Positions 4,117 to 8,956 of a stretch of DNA of 44,859 nucleotides are shown here, piece after piece. Under the pieces are notes generated by a model, which worked only from the letters and a program-made list of their open reading frames with translations, did not search any database and was not told where the DNA came from. Source of the stretch: a virus; the IMG/VR virus record IMGVR_UViG_3300027963_000114, positions 1 through 44,859 of that record; one strand, given 5' to 3'. The position numbers and the translations under genes were made by a program. Position 1 is the first letter of the stretch, and each line of letters opens with the position of its first letter.

Positions 4117-5278
4117 GTAAGAATAACATTTCATCATAGAAAGCTTTATCACTTGGATCATCAATATCTAAATATTGATCCTTAATAATCTGAAAATCTC
4201 GAGAAGAAAGTCTATCATCAAATATAATCTGTTTTAAAGACTCATAGTATTTTTTACTTTTCAATTCAGATTCAATAAATTGATCAGTAATGTCGTTATC
4301 TAAATCATCATAGTAAACTTTACCACCTTTTGTAGAAGCTACTTTCTTTTTTTCCCAATTATGCTTTGGTGTTTGGTCATACCAATCATCATTATATCCA
4401 TATGATCTTGAATGTCCATGACTTCTGCCTCTTGAAGAATAAGATCTATCAGAGCTACCCCAAGAGTAACTATCATAATTGCCATAGTTATATTTAGATG
4501 AACTATCATAATTGCCATAGTTATATTTAGATGATCCAGTGTGACTATATGACTTATATTCTGTTGTTTTTGGATCTCTTTTAGTTGGTAAAGATTCCCA
4601 ATCAACTTTAACAGAAGCGTTACACAATTTAATCAAGTGTGAAATATCTTGACTTTCATCGTGTGTGTGTTCTTTGTAATAACCCACTGAAATGTTAGTA
4701 CACTCTGGAATAACACCAGTAAATTCAGCAGAGTCGGTATAAACACCGGTGTTGTCCGGAGACATCTTTAATCCATATTGATTAAAGTCTTTTGCTAAAA
4801 CTTTAGCAAATTCTTCGGAACAGCATCTTTTTGAAGATTGAAAAGTGATAATTGAATTAGTTCCTCTACGGTCAAATGAAATCATTCTATTGTAGTCTTT
4901 GAAGCTGGCATCTCTTGAAGCCAATCCAGAACCAATACAACCAACTTCTTCACCAAAGAAGAAACAGTAAAGTCCAGGAACATTCTTTTCAATCATATAC
5001 AATAAAACTGTTACACCAGCTTTATCATCGGCTCCTAAAATGGATTTACCATCAGTTTTAATGATATCTCCTTCAAATCTATGAATAACATCTACTTGGT
5101 CTTTACAAGCTGTATCTAAGTGACAAGCGAAAGCAGTTTTACTTTCACCTATTTTATAAAAATAGTTTCCGTGTTGGTCTTTATAGTGACCTTTTGGCAA
5201 AAAACTCACAAGCTCATCTTCAAATCCATATGGATATGTTTTACTTGTTAGAGCTAAAAATGTGTTTTTAATATTCAT
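4109..5278 (-). CDS. Zinc-dependent exopeptidase-like protein (M20/M28/M42 fold) with Tyr/Gly/Ser-rich insert
   Basis: A 389-residue protein with the metal-site signature of co-catalytic zinc peptidases: H53-x-D55 (ACHLDT), bridging D84 in GADDKAG, the catalytic/metal pair E110-E111 (FGEEVGCIGS), D136 (SFDRRG) and a late His in HTHDES. These enzymes remove N-terminal residues from peptides. After about residue 235 comes a low-complexity region with YNYGNYD repeats (see the repeat at 4468) and then a charged helical tail. Such a peptidase is unusual in a phage; it might trim virion proteins or scavenge amino acids, which is inference. It ends in TAG, followed six codons later in frame by TAA. 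A TATCTTTG box lies 49 bases upstream. Confidence 0.75.
   Translation of the reverse strand: MNIKNTFLALTSKTYPYGFEDELVSFLPKGHYKDQHGNYFYKIGESKTAFACHLDTACKDQVDVIHRFEGDIIKTDGKSILGADDKAGVTVLLYMIEKNVPGLYCFFFGEEVGCIGSGLASRDASFKDYNRMISFDRRGTNSIITFQSSKRCCSEEFAKVLAKDFNQYGLKMSPDNTGVYTDSAEFTGVIPECTNISVGYYKEHTHDESQDISHLIKLCNASVKVDWESLPTKRDPKTTEYKSYSHTGSSKYNYGNYDSSSKYNYGNYDSYSWGSSDRSYSSRGRSHGHSRSYGYNDDWYDQTPKHNWEKKKVASTKGGKVYYDDLDNDITDQFIESELKSKKYYESLKQIIFDDRLSSRDFQIIKDQYLDIDDPSDKAFYDEMLFLLK
4468..4533. repeat. Perfect 33-bp tandem direct repeat, two copies
   Basis: Positions 4468-4500 and 4501-4533 are identical 33-base units inside the exopeptidase gene. Each encodes an 11-residue unit of the form SSKYNYGNYDS, so copy-number change keeps the frame. 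The repeat lies in the low-complexity linker after the catalytic domain. Confidence 0.9.
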
Positions 5279-5326
5279 TTTATATTATATTATTAAAGTA
5301 CCAACATGATACTTTATTTCTTACTA

Positions 5327-5334
5327 CAAAGATA
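5327..5334 (-). promoter_or_regulatory. Bacteroidota-type -7 box (TATCTTTG) for the exopeptidase gene
   Basis: On the minus strand this reads TATCTTTG, matching the TAnnTTTG -7 consensus of Bacteroidota primary-sigma promoters. The gene start at 5278 is 49 bases downstream. Confidence 0.5.
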
Positions 5335-5366
5335 AGGTATATATTCAGTATTTCCAAATTTTATTG

Positions 5367-5397
5367 GAAAACCATATCATTATTTGATATGGTTTTC
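5367..5397. terminator. Hairpin, 13-bp stem, overlapping the stop of the 5380-5730 gene
   Basis: GAAAACCATATCA pairs perfectly with TGATATGGTTTTC around a 5-base loop. The stop codon of the leftward gene lies in the loop. The T-rich run is better on the plus-strand side, so it may work in both directions or only weakly leftward. Confidence 0.55.
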
Positions 5398-5730
5398 AAT
5401 TTTTTCTAAATTTTTCTTAGTTTGTTTAATACTTTTCACTTTTTTATCCAAAAATAATATATGACTAATTACACATTTAACATTATTTCCACAATACTTA
5501 ATATAATGGTCAATATCAATTTTTCTAACACTATCATTTTCTAAAAGATAATATCCGTCTTCTTTCTTAAATAACTTAAAGTAAGTAGTATTTTCATAGT
5601 CATATTCATAATAACCTGGTTTGTTGTGGTCACCCCATTTAAAAGTTGCTTTTGGCTTTAAGAATAAGTGATTTGTTGTTTTGTTTAAGTAATTGATTAC
5701 TTCTTGCTTGTTTTGTTCTACTGTTATCAT
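5380..5730 (-). CDS. Hypothetical protein, 116 aa
   Basis: Starts MITVEQNKQEVINYLNKTT. The middle is Tyr-rich and beta-like (GYYEYDYENTTYFKLF), and the C-terminus is a Lys-rich helix (KKVKSIKQTKKNLEKI). No motif is recognised. It lies downstream of the GIY-YIG endonuclease on the same strand and ends in a hairpin. Confidence 0.6.
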   Translation of the reverse strand: MITVEQNKQEVINYLNKTTNHLFLKPKATFKWGDHNKPGYYEYDYENTTYFKLFKKEDGYYLLENDSVRKIDIDHYIKYCGNNVKCVISHILFLDKKVKSIKQTKKNLEKIENHIK

Positions 5731-5746
5731 AATTAATTTTTATTTT

Positions 5747-6661
5747 TTATTTTTTGACATACCATCCTTTATAATTGGATTTTTTATTTTTATCAAAACA
5801 AAGATCTCTGATCGATGATACTGGTAGTTTTTTCTCTCTACAAAATTTAGTAAGGTTTCTTATATTTTTAAATTCATCACCATTCGGTGATATTAGAGTA
5901 AAATCATATTCTTTGGCATTTTTCTCCAGAGGTCTTATTGAATCTTCGGTATAAAGAGACCAGCCATTACAATATCTTGTCCGACCATTTATTATATTAG
6001 AAAAGACAGATGAATTTAAATTATGAACCCTTGAAAATTCTTCTAAATTGAATATAGGACCATATACTGAACCGTCAGGTCCCAAAAGCTTAACATCGTG
6101 AAATTTAGCACCTTTATTCTTAATCTTTCTATAGTTTTTATAGTCATAATCTTTATTTTCAATTGTTCTCCAACCCTTACAACTTTTATTTTTTCCACTC
6201 AGTAGTCTTGAGACAAATGATGATGAACAATTAATTATTCTAGCTGCCTCACATATGCTGTTAAACGATACTTCTTTATTCTCAGGATCTAACAGGGTAA
6301 TTGATTTTTTTCTACAATTATTATATTCAACAAGTGATTTATTTGGATCGGTTTCTTTGTTAATGTTGTAACATTTCGGACCAAAATATTTCTCAATATA
6401 TTTCAACTCTATCTCATAAATATTTTCAATACTGTCTAATATTTCAACAACTTCAAAAACAAATGAATCAGTACCATATTTGTTGTAGGAATTTTGCAAG
6501 TGTTGATTATCATGTTTATTTAATTTTAGATTTGAATAATGTGTTCTAAACCTATCATATAGATTATAAGCACTTCCAATATAAATATTATCATTAATGA
6601 TATTTTTTATTTGATAAATTCCAGATGAATAGTAATTATTTTTTGATATTAGATTTTTCAT
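5747..6661 (-). CDS. GIY-YIG homing endonuclease with NUMOD/IENR-like repeats
   Basis: A 304-residue free-standing homing endonuclease. The N-terminal nuclease domain has GIYQIKN then NIYIGSA, followed by the conserved Arg (YDRFRTH) and FEVVEIL. Three DNA-binding repeats follow, each with a beta segment (LLDPENKEV, LLGPDGSVYG, LISPNGDEF), a helix and a closing KGW or NGW, as in the IENR/NUMOD modules of SegA-like enzymes. These proteins nick or cut phage DNA and promote their own spread. It sits immediately downstream of the HD-domain gene. Confidence 0.88.
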   Translation of the reverse strand: MKNLISKNNYYSSGIYQIKNIINDNIYIGSAYNLYDRFRTHYSNLKLNKHDNQHLQNSYNKYGTDSFVFEVVEILDSIENIYEIELKYIEKYFGPKCYNINKETDPNKSLVEYNNCRKKSITLLDPENKEVSFNSICEAARIINCSSSFVSRLLSGKNKSCKGWRTIENKDYDYKNYRKIKNKGAKFHDVKLLGPDGSVYGPIFNLEEFSRVHNLNSSVFSNIINGRTRYCNGWSLYTEDSIRPLEKNAKEYDFTLISPNGDEFKNIRNLTKFCREKKLPVSSIRDLCFDKNKKSNYKGWYVKK

Positions 6662-6685: not shown

Positions 6686-7279
6686 TTAATTTTCCGTTTT
6701 ATTTTTAATGAAATGGAGTATATTTTTACCTCTTTTAAAGATATTTTTTTTCTTTATCAAAAAAGATTGTGAACTTGTACCACCAAACATTTGTGAATTT
6801 GAGTGTGTTTCGGCTAATCCAGTTAACAATAAAGTTAGAGCATAAGGGTTCTTACTAAATTCTTCAACACCATCGGACTTCAATAAATGAATATCCATAT
6901 CATGTAGAATTAATTCAGCCGCGACCGGATTATTAAATACTTGTGTAAAATACTGGTAGGAAACTTGAGCATGATTAGGAAAATGTCTTTTTCCATCACT
7001 ATCTACCATAAGACAGAACGGCTTACCACAATCGTGATATGTGGTATAAAGTTCTAAGGTTTCATCATCTGTTAAAGATGATAGAATAAGGTCTTTATTT
7101 TCTAAGACCCAATCAGGTAACTTCCATTCATATTGTAATGTAGTTCCTGTTCGTAAATGATTAATAAGGTCAAAAAGGTAGTTCTTAACTGAAATACCGT
7201 GGTCTAAAACAGACTGACCTTTAGTCTGTTCACATTCAGACATTTTCTGAATGAGTTCTTGTTGTGTAATCTACATCAT
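6686..7279 (-). CDS. HD-domain phosphohydrolase-like protein with in-frame amber codon 3
   Basis: The protein carries the HD metal-site series: H in LDHGISV, HD in YHDCGKP, H in FPNHAQVS and a further His/Asp in LILHDMDIH. HD proteins hydrolyse nucleotides or phosphodiesters; the substrate here is unknown. The helix that should precede the motif is encoded upstream of the internal ATG at 7243 (QELIQKMSECEQ), and reading back reaches ATG ATG TAG ATT at 7279-7268. Full-length product therefore needs readthrough of TAG at 7271-7273, initiation at ATT 7270, or the shorter start at 7243 (185 aa). It is the second of two genes in this block with that arrangement; see the suppressor tRNA at 8368. 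Confidence 0.7.
7271..7273 (-). other. In-frame TAG at codon 3 of the HD-domain gene
   Basis: Minus-strand order is ATG, ATG, TAG, ATT, ACA, with the frame continuing open to 6686. The same context GTAGATTA occurs at the peptidyl-tRNA hydrolase-like gene start. Confidence 0.85.
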
Positions 7280-7280
7280 A

Positions 7281-7982
7281 TTATTTTAATTTAAATTTTG
7301 TTTTTAATTCTTTTAGTAAGTGTGGATGAGCCCATTTTTCATCCTTAATTTCAACTTCAACTACTTGATTATTAGGTATTAAGTTGTTTTTTAATTGGTA
7401 TGAGTCACCGTGAAACGTTGGCTCTGATGGTCCATTCACTCTGATAATATTACCATTTTCAAGTTGAATAAATAAAGTGCCTTTTTTATATTTGAATTTA
7501 CGACCATTTGAATAATCTACTTCAACATCTTCTTTAACTTTCCAACCTTTTATTTCATGTTTTTTAGGTTCTTTAGGTTCTTCCTCTTTTAGTAACTTAT
7601 CTATTTTGAAGTTTCTATACTCCATTTGATCCATCACATAAAGAGGTCTTACACGCCATTCAAATTCTTGTTTAGATGATGATAAGTAACATTTGTGTGC
7701 CGATTCATTTGCAACGTGAATAGAACTATAAATCTTATAATTCCAATAAGTCAACCACCCATACCAATCATCATTTTTGTTATCTCGCCACCTAACTTCT
7801 AATGTGTATCCATAGGGTCTTATGTCCTCAGCAGATGATTGAGATTGAAAAATAATTGATTTCTCAATAGCATAATCTTTTCTATTAATTGTATAATAGT
7901 GATTTGGTATAACTAAGTGTTCAGGTGAAGATTCTACAACTGGTTTAGGTTTATTTTTACGAAAAAAGTCTAAAATTCTCAT
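7281..7982 (-). CDS. Hypothetical protein, 233 aa
   Basis: Starts MRILDFFRKNKPKPVV. The first half is rich in Trp and Tyr (EVRWRDNKNDDWYGWLTYW) and the second half is a Lys-rich beta segment (HEIKGWKVKEDVEV). No known domain is seen. Its ATG overlaps the TGA of the upstream peptidyl-tRNA hydrolase-like gene (ATGA), so the two are translationally coupled, and it sits between the two amber-containing genes but has no in-frame amber itself. Confidence 0.7.
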   Translation of the reverse strand: MRILDFFRKNKPKPVVESSPEHLVIPNHYYTINRKDYAIEKSIIFQSQSSAEDIRPYGYTLEVRWRDNKNDDWYGWLTYWNYKIYSSIHVANESAHKCYLSSSKQEFEWRVRPLYVMDQMEYRNFKIDKLLKEEEPKEPKKHEIKGWKVKEDVEVDYSNGRKFKYKKGTLFIQLENGNIIRVNGPSEPTFHGDSYQLKNNLIPNNQVVEVEIKDEKWAHPHLLKELKTKFKLK

Positions 7983-8332
7983 ACGGCAACAGATTCTTTT
8001 TTGAGAGTTAGTGGCAAGTGCGATAAACTCTTACGGATTTTGGAATCGGCGTAGAGACAGATAGAAGTGAATTCATTTACATCTGGTTCAAAAAATTTGA
8101 CAATAGGTGTAATCTGAGAATACTTCTCAAATAGTTGTAATAAATGTTGTTCTGATTTTGCGGACAAACAGATAATGGAATTTGATTCTTCTTTCCATTT
8201 CTTAAATGTTTCTGTGTGTTCAAATGCGAAGTCCGCTAGTGAATGAGAGCTTTGCACACACTGATAACCTGGGTTGATGTCTTGTCTGGTTATAATGACA
8301 AGTTTCGATTCGTTTAAGTTAATCTACTTCAT
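7979..8332 (-). CDS. Peptidyl-tRNA hydrolase 2-like protein with in-frame amber codon 3
   Basis: The frame encodes 117 codons. After MK and TAG it reads INLNESKLVIITRQDINPGY, then QSSHSLADF, FKKWKEESN, FFEPDVNEFTSIC and a closing LSHLPLTLK. The order of first strand, PG-loop, QS-x-H helix, EPD and LPL ending fits the PTH2 fold, which cleaves peptidyl-tRNA released from stalled ribosomes. Between the TAG at 8324-8326 and the first strand there is no ATG, GTG or TTG; the next usable start is a GTG at 8257, which would remove the first strand and PG-loop. Production of a folded protein thus seems to need amber readthrough or ATT initiation at 8323. It ends TGA, overlapping the next ATG. Confidence 0.65.
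8324..8326 (-). other. In-frame TAG at codon 3 of the peptidyl-tRNA hydrolase-like gene
   Basis: Minus-strand order is ATG, AAG, TAG, ATT, AAC, with an open frame on to 7979. The suppressor-type tRNA lies 36 bases upstream of this ATG. Confidence 0.85.
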
Positions 8333-8367
8333 AATGTTTGTTTTTTATTTTTATATATTATAATTTG

Positions 8368-8448
8368 TGCGTCCCACAGGATTCGAACCCGAAAACACTT
8401 GGTTTAGAGCCAAGTCTCACTCGCCTGATAAGATTAAGTTCAAGACGC
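8368..8448 (-). tRNA. tRNA with anticodon CUA (putative amber suppressor)
   Basis: The anticodon arm is unambiguous: stem CTTGG/CCAAG around the loop CTCTAAA, giving U33, anticodon CUA and A37, the same loop as the classical supF suppressor. The T-arm contains GGTTCGAATCC. The acceptor stem is GCGTCTT/GGGACGC with two G-T pairs, discriminator A, and no encoded CCA. The variable loop is short (5 bases). Odd features are a D-region of about 24 bases between positions 9 and 26, with a near-duplication CTTAAT/CTTATC, G at position 8, and a T-T mismatch closing the T-stem. It could be functional or degenerate. The amino acid carried cannot be told. It is upstream of, and codirectional with, two genes having early in-frame TAG codons. 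Confidence 0.75.
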
Positions 8449-8467
8449 TTATTTGATTATTATAATA

Positions 8468-8475
8468 CAAATATA
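8468..8475 (-). promoter_or_regulatory. -7 box (TATATTTG) for the suppressor-type tRNA block
   Basis: The minus strand reads TATATTTG, matching TAnnTTTG, 20 bases before the tRNA 5' end. One transcript from here could carry the tRNA, the peptidyl-tRNA hydrolase-like gene and the HD gene. Confidence 0.5.
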
Positions 8476-8578: not shown

Positions 8579-8956
8579 ATGAAAGATGAACCATTCGGCC
8601 CCCATTTGACCTTAGATTTAAAAGGTTGTCCAAAAGAAATTTTGGAGAATTATAATCTACATTTTGATTATTTGAAAAAACTACCAGAGATGATTGGAAT
8701 GACACCAATTACTCAACCGTATGTTTTTCCTTATTCTGGATTAGTACCAGAAGATAAAGGTATCACAGGTATTGTGATTATTGCCGAAAGTCATTTATCT
8801 ATACACTCATTTGAAGATAAGGGATATACATTTATTGATATGTTTTCTTGTAAAAGCTTTGATGTAGAGAGTGCTATCAAATACACTCTAGAACTTTTCA
8901 AACCAGAAAGTTATGAAATGAAAATGGTAGAAAGAGGGAAAGATTTTCCAAGGTAA
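8579..8956 (+). CDS. speH: S-adenosylmethionine decarboxylase proenzyme (SpeH/SpeD type)
   Basis: A 125-residue protein with the core of prokaryotic AdoMet decarboxylase: ESHLSIHSFEDKGY, where cleavage between E and S yields the pyruvoyl cofactor, followed by DMFSCKSFD with the catalytic Cys. The enzyme makes decarboxylated AdoMet, the aminopropyl donor for spermidine. The length matches the small bacterial form. No aminopropyltransferase is seen in the window, so the product would be used by host enzymes or by genes elsewhere. It is a single gene closed by a strong terminator. Confidence 0.9.
   Translation: MKDEPFGPHLTLDLKGCPKEILENYNLHFDYLKKLPEMIGMTPITQPYVFPYSGLVPEDKGITGIVIIAESHLSIHSFEDKGYTFIDMFSCKSFDVESAIKYTLELFKPESYEMKMVERGKDFPR

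Follow-up and report, generated by a model that had tools for sequence, protein, structure and literature searches.

Release factor 2 (prfB) is autoregulated by an early in-frame UGA and uses +1 frameshifting. We describe in large phages an arrangement that resembles prfB in that an early in-frame stop would sense a translation factor and control a translation-related protein, and that differs from it in that the frame is unchanged and the cognate tRNA is encoded. Decoding of UAG by a phage tRNA is familiar from recoded phages (crAss-like phages using code 15, Lak phages and others), whose CUA suppressor tRNA has been proposed to act as a regulatory switch (PMC9523058, PMC13037316, PMC10879173). 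As in those phages, a phage-encoded suppressor tRNA is predicted to read UAG in phage genes; unlike them, the genomes considered here place one stop at or near the start of two tRNA-related genes, keep the standard code in the remainder, and also use the arrangement in a UGA/UCA form. A synthetic counterpart is the suppressor-tRNA feed-forward "leak dampener", in which a nonsense codon and a separately expressed suppressor tRNA gate expression (Ho et al. 2020, PMC7969014). That circuit is engineered, whereas the arrangement here is natural and its targets are putative tRNA-handling enzymes.

Targets of such tRNAs have been sought before. The authors of the XacN1 genome read through 18 amber stops in search of genes served by its CUA tRNAs and found none (PMC5852040), and the purpose of the tRNA of phage Summit is described as unknown (PMC9022506). 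PTH2 has been recorded across jumbo phages, with a proposed role in hydrolysing peptidyl-tRNA linkages during ribosome rescue (Iyer et al. 2021, PMC7824862); in a term search of that article suppressor tRNAs go unmentioned and "amber" occurs in the title of a reference and nowhere else. Searches of the open-licence literature turned up no account of phage Pth2 or HD genes with an early in-frame stop. We propose, with high confidence, that large phages use their own stop-reading tRNA as a translational lock that gates Pth2-like genes and HD genes of the CCA-enzyme type. The decoding step, a phage suppressor tRNA reading stops, is of a known kind, and the circuit built on it appears to be new. 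We suggest that the target in XacN1 was overlooked because the amber codon precedes the annotated start or leaves one gene annotated as a pair of hypothetical proteins.

Layout of the locus and its CUA tRNA

The window, by which we mean the whole 44,859-base stretch analyzed, is a piece of a large phage from an IMG/VR virus record; its nearest named relative is LR745206, an uncultured phage of 634,780 bases. A promoter-like box, a CUA tRNA, a Pth2-like gene, a 233-aa ORF and an HD-domain gene follow one another on its minus strand. The box (TATATTTG, 8468..8475, minus strand) was read directly, belongs to the TAnnTTTG type (Bacteroidota-like), lies 20 bases 5' of the tRNA and may serve as a promoter. 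The Pth2-like gene (7979..8332, minus strand; phrog_1866) reads MK[TAG]INLNESKLVIITRQD... and ends in TGA; its frame opens with ATG AAG TAG ATT at 8332-8321, where the TAG is codon 3 (8324..8326), and then runs for 114 sense codons. The HD gene (6686..7279, minus strand) reads MM[TAG]ITQQELIQKMSECEQTKGQ... and ends in TAA; it opens with ATG ATG TAG ATT at 7279-7268, again with TAG as codon 3 (7271..7273), and continues for 194 codons. Between them, the 233-aa ORF (7281..7982, minus strand) overlaps the Pth2 stop (ATGA), matches no family and contains no in-frame amber. ATG-NNN-TAG occurs 30 times in the window and opens a long frame in these two cases only. A previous, sequence-only reading of this DNA had pointed to the ATG-NNN-TAG-ATT opening of both genes and to the absence of early ambers from the other window genes, and both observations hold. 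It had also set box, tRNA and both genes on the same strand, which is correct; to that account we add the 233-aa ORF between the two genes.

Two neighbors flank this module. A GIY-YIG/NUMOD homing-endonuclease-like gene (5747-6661, minus strand) lies directly 3' of the HD gene, and an S-adenosylmethionine decarboxylase gene (8579-8956, plus strand; Pfam 90.9 bits) is divergent from the CUA tRNA.

The tRNA itself lies at 8367..8448 (minus strand). Its anticodon arm is CTTGG-CTCTAAA-CCAAG, whose loop CTCTAAA gives the anticodon CUA, as previously read; it has a 7-bp acceptor stem (GCGTCTT/GGGACGC), a 5-bp D-stem and a canonical T-loop (TTCGAAT). Neither ARAGORN nor Rfam (E≤1) calls it, because a linker of nine bases, GAACTTAAT, parts the acceptor stem from the D-arm. 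The linker consensus GARNTTAAW and the 5-bp D-stem are common to this tRNA and to the CUA tRNAs of three related phage loci, L030 (5425-5506), L032 (1708-1788) and L038 (5509-5590), all missed by ARAGORN, located by hand search and a covariance model and, in L030 and L038, lying immediately 5' of Pth2. This recurrence argues that the unusual D-arm region is a conserved feature and not a defect. The window tRNA scores 90.9 bits in cmsearch, a partly circular value given that the model was built from it and its three relatives; the model also matches ordinary tRNAs, and CUA matches alone were therefore used. ARAGORN, put forward as a check in the sequence-only reading, did not call the tRNA; the acceptor stem, anticodon arm and T-arm are sound, and the linker is kept in relatives. 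Further variant CUA tRNAs lie just upstream of Pth2 or of a fusion gene in L028, L037, L092, L045, L051, L058 and L065; those of L045, L051 and L065 are D-arm-poor.

Conservation of the stop and its match to the anticodon

As a single-protein query, the window Pth2 found no viral relatives, and it was the HD query that opened the family. The first HD search returned 15 homologues at 38-80% identity, and in nearly all of them an in-frame TAG immediately precedes the conserved domain; with the scan widened, we obtained 80 viral loci plus two good matches in contigs of bacterial MAGs. The final homologue set holds 92 phage loci in 66 clusters (<80% HD identity). An in-frame stop in Pth2, HD or their fusion is present in 61 of the 66 clusters (59 TAG, 2 TGA), and it falls at codons 2-5 in 77/87 cases and at codon 3 in 43/87. 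The sequence-only reading had named conservation of the TAG in homologues as a test of its interpretation, which this result leaves unrefuted. Cultured phages with the lock are GAP32, Serratia phage BF, XbC2, XacN1, RAS14, pT24, ME3 and Arash.

The stop persists in both Pth2 subfamilies and in each of three gene arrangements. Pth2 and HD are adjacent in L030, L031 and the GAP32 group and fused in others, and each fusion carries one N-terminal stop whichever domain comes first: pT24 (Pth2 first) and XacN1 and RAS14 (HD first) each have one TAG, at codon 3. The position of the stop can shift while its identity is kept. In GAP32-type phages the Pth2 TAG is codon 4, and the HD stop is codon 47 in GAP32, Serratia phage BF and XbC2, which is why annotators split HD there into two ORFs; comparison of the GAP32 and BF HD genes reveals coding-type substitutions on both sides of this TAG. 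The lock is absent from L041, L086 and L091, and L041 nevertheless has two CUA tRNAs nearby. In L045, the CUA tRNA and the Pth2-HD fusion are separated by an extra 322-codon ORF (4690-5655) that starts MKNM[TAG]IKV, which has the look of a copied MKNT[TAG]IK, the start in the sister locus L065.

The identity of the stop matches the anticodon of the phage tRNA across lineages, and a cognate stop-reading tRNA is encoded by the same genome in seven phages and in the window. In L044 and L053 codon 3 of HD is TGA, and UCA tRNAs number one and two, respectively, on contigs that encode no CUA tRNA; as sisters (73% HD identity), they represent one switching event. Agrobacterium phage Atu_ph07 has TGA before Pth2 (MIGEHF[TGA]INYEEL), one UCA tRNA and no CUA tRNA; its UCA opal suppressor was published independently (PMC6102473). 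Its relative Phosso reads MKY[TAG]VEEK and encodes two CUA tRNAs and no UCA tRNA, and GAP32, Serratia phage BF and XacN1, all with TAG, encode a CUA tRNA and no UCA tRNA. RaK2 and Munch, in which Pth2 starts at an ordinary ATG, have no stop-reading tRNA in the whole genome. The fully scanned genomes thus divide into four TAG/CUA versus three TGA/UCA, small counts that include two independent opal switches. The one exception is L057, whose 262-kb contig yielded no CUA tRNA call although HD has TAG; the HD gene (~5920-6579) contains two in-frame TAGs, and there is one poor UCA-like tRNA without U33.

Among the 59 TAG clusters, ARAGORN finds a local CUA tRNA in 33, and CUA tRNAs that it missed are present in ~9 more, the window included; in ~17 none was recognized in a search mostly within ~6 kb of the genes. 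As an out-of-sample case we considered Stenotrophomonas phage DLP5 (NC_042082), a relative of Summit. It has a CUA tRNA (L333, 2270-2343) and neither a Pth2 nor an HD gene, nor any convincing target of that tRNA, and such tRNAs can therefore serve something else.

Chance does not produce this pattern at an appreciable rate. We scored frames in which an ATG precedes the upstream stop by at most 4 codons and the 8 codons after that stop include no start codon. Such early stops occur in 42/59 Pth2 and 40/66 HD representatives, versus 13/928 (1.4%) of the other ORFs of at least 100 codons in the same loci, where the stop is TAG in only two. Other ORFs of these loci that show an early stop either lack conservation or have an ordinary Met beyond it. 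The base that follows the early TAG is strongly biased (A66/G15/C5/T0; purine in 81/86) relative to that after terminal TAGs (A33/G23/T29/C28). In E. coli, a purine 3' of UAG favors suppression over termination. A genome-wide comparison of GAP32 with Serratia phage BF found 378 conserved TAG columns. We report the filtered scan, because antisense shadows and UTR stops ahead of a normal ATG otherwise dominate. Of the 13 columns left after filters, two, those of Pth2 and HD, lie in coding sequence without a following start, and an ordinary start follows each of the others. GAP32_082 was considered as a third amber gene and rejected, as it has an ordinary GTG start. The corresponding scan of Atu_ph07 against Phosso yielded no conserved TGA/TAG pair, at a sensitivity too low to pick up even the N-terminal Pth pair already known.

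These comparisons strongly support a stop that is conserved, lies inside coding sequence and matches the anticodon of a phage tRNA, and they also strongly support its being read by the phage's own tRNA. The dependence of full-length products on the phage CUA tRNA, as proposed in the sequence-only reading, is strongly supported by the 61/66 clusters, the co-switching of stop and anticodon, the ordinary Pth2 starts of two tRNA-less phages and the 3' context.

Two candidate tRNA-handling proteins and a proposed mechanism

The Pth2-like product matches PF01981 (PTH2) at 26 bits (cutoff 23), and PDB entries 24bt and 2zv3 are also matched. The family comprises two subfamilies, pthA, to which the window protein belongs, and pthB (L046, L055, L060, L066). 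PthB keeps the lysine of the GK motif and has an early in-frame stop too; in pthA the GK position reads GYQ/EQ/AQ and the lysine was not found. This lysine, in the active-site helix, we take to be the catalytic Lys of Pth2. We therefore call the window protein Pth2-like rather than Pth2, its catalysis being uncertain. Past the TAG, its first in-frame ATG/GTG/TTG is a GTG 22 codons on, inside the conserved core.

The HD protein has the H...HD...H...D motif, with H24, H79-D80, H100, D124 and H128 invariant. Its Pfam HD match is weak. Its profile and predicted structure agree on the best relative. Among solved structures the profile's best match is the tRNA A-adding enzyme 3wfo-3wfs, listed as a poly(A) polymerase/tRNA processing enzyme (E 6e-5), and the AlphaFold model (pLDDT 96.6) aligns with the same entries at Z 15.0 and 2.8 Å over 160 residues, ahead of PhnZ at 10.5. 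Foldseek alone gave no significant match for this model; TIGR02692 (tRNA_CCA) is matched in 9/17 HD proteins. Profile and model thus liken the HD protein to the HD portion of bacterial A-adding/CCA tRNA nucleotidyltransferases. Unlike those enzymes, it is free-standing or fused to Pth2 and without the nucleotidyltransferase head. Both proteins point to tRNA, Pth2 to peptidyl-tRNA and HD to tRNA 3' ends.

The two genes differ in how much protein lies beyond the reach of a later start. The sequence-only reading had held that such a start loses conserved protein in both, which is borne out for Pth2, whose GTG is inside the core, and needs correcting for HD, where a nearly invariant in-frame Met lies ~10 codons past the TAG. 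Just ~10 residues of HD therefore depend on upstream initiation, and a shorter, near-complete form could start at the internal Met without readthrough.

We propose that the phage encodes a tRNA reading UAG (UGA in a few lineages) and carries the matching stop in frame, usually at codon 2-5, in its Pth2-like and HD genes or their fusion. With no stop-reading tRNA, ribosomes would terminate after a few residues; once the tRNA had been transcribed, processed and charged, some of them would read through and yield the Pth2 and HD proteins. Both proteins would then probably be made only when the phage tRNA is present and working. We infer that readthrough occurs and is set by tRNA level and, more weakly, that it serves to make production of tRNA-handling enzymes contingent on the presence of functional phage tRNA. 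The simplest idea is feed-forward, in which tRNA-servicing enzymes would be made only when there are phage tRNAs to service; feedback on tRNA or peptidyl-tRNA level is an alternative purpose. The sequence-only reading had envisaged a timing or host-dependence switch. Since both targets look like tRNA-handling proteins, coupling to tRNA supply or quality is just as likely.

Competing explanations and what the lock would mean

Negative feedback is the main alternative to feed-forward and a variant of the lock, with the same decoding and another purpose: the locked proteins would reduce the amount of suppressor tRNA or its charging (or the level of peptidyl-tRNA), suppression would be self-limiting and terminal UAGs would be spared. 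The resemblance of both proteins to tRNA-acting enzymes fits this, with the stop reader as sensor. However, action of either protein on the suppressor tRNA is unsupported, and the phage's retention of the tRNA would be unexplained unless the proteins have another job; we consider this purpose doubtful. A more distant explanation takes ATG-NNN-stop as a minimal upstream ORF, a leader after which the protein starts by reinitiation or at a non-AUG codon (ATT). Regulation would then sense peptidyl-tRNA or termination, which suits a Pth gene and recalls the bar minigenes of lambda, by which tRNA is sequestered as peptidyl-tRNA. The stop is indeed mostly codon 3, ATT comes next in 37/86 cases, and the conserved HD Met lies where such a start could be. 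Yet the putative leader is always in frame with the gene, most Pth2 genes have no ATG/GTG/TTG before the conserved core, the codon after the stop varies (GTT, AAC, ACC, CTG), the GAP32-type HD stop at codon 47 is within coding sequence, and the early stop is UAG or UGA in accord with the phage tRNA and not UAA. A leader ORF is thus unlikely, though less so than any of the readings that follow.

Genome-wide reassignment of UAG (code 15), known from some crAss-like and Lak phages, would make the two genes merely two among many. CUA tRNAs are present and UAG is the least used terminator, but it still ends 108 of the 928 background ORFs, the GAP32/BF comparison leaves two genes with a conserved in-frame UAG, and the other long genes of the window have no in-frame TAG. 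Recoding was rejected as very improbable, since neither the GAP32/BF comparison nor the window genes show UAG used as a sense codon in many genes. Insertion of pyrrolysine or selenocysteine in place of ordinary nonsense suppression is suggested by ARAGORN's labels ("Pyl" for CUA, "SeC" for UCA), which are assigned by anticodon alone. tRNA-Pyl and the longer tRNA-Sec differ from ordinary class I tRNAs of 71-79 nt, and it is to this ordinary class, with normal T-loops, that most of the stop-reading tRNAs belong. The position of the stop relative to the protein domain varies, and a PylS-type synthetase exceeds the cut-off in 0/9 phage genomes while control genomes are matched. We rejected pyrrolysine and judge this class of explanation slightly less probable still than recoding. 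Least credible of all are gene decay and sequencing error. In GAP32, Serratia phage BF and XbC2, annotators did split or truncate the genes at the stop, but the same kind of stop recurs in 61/66 clusters from independent assemblies with purifying selection downstream; pseudogenes are contradicted by this conservation and were rejected.

We put at about even the chance that the translational lock is a widespread natural circuit undescribed in the open-licence literature, in which a dedicated suppressor tRNA is the key and two tRNA-maintenance proteins are the conserved targets bearing the matching stop. It would show a natural nonsense codon acting as an expression gate, much as in synthetic leak-dampening circuits. 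The annotation of a conserved Pth2/HD module is corrected, and candidate targets occur in phages that can be grown (GAP32, XacN1, pT24, ME3, Arash, Atu_ph07). Suppressor tRNAs in standard-code jumbo phages had no known target, and Pth2/HD is a concrete candidate, XacN1 included; if the lock operates as proposed, the seemingly purposeless "Sup" tRNAs of several jumbo phages would be explained, and synthesis of Pth2 and HD would be a direct readout of how much functional phage tRNA there is.
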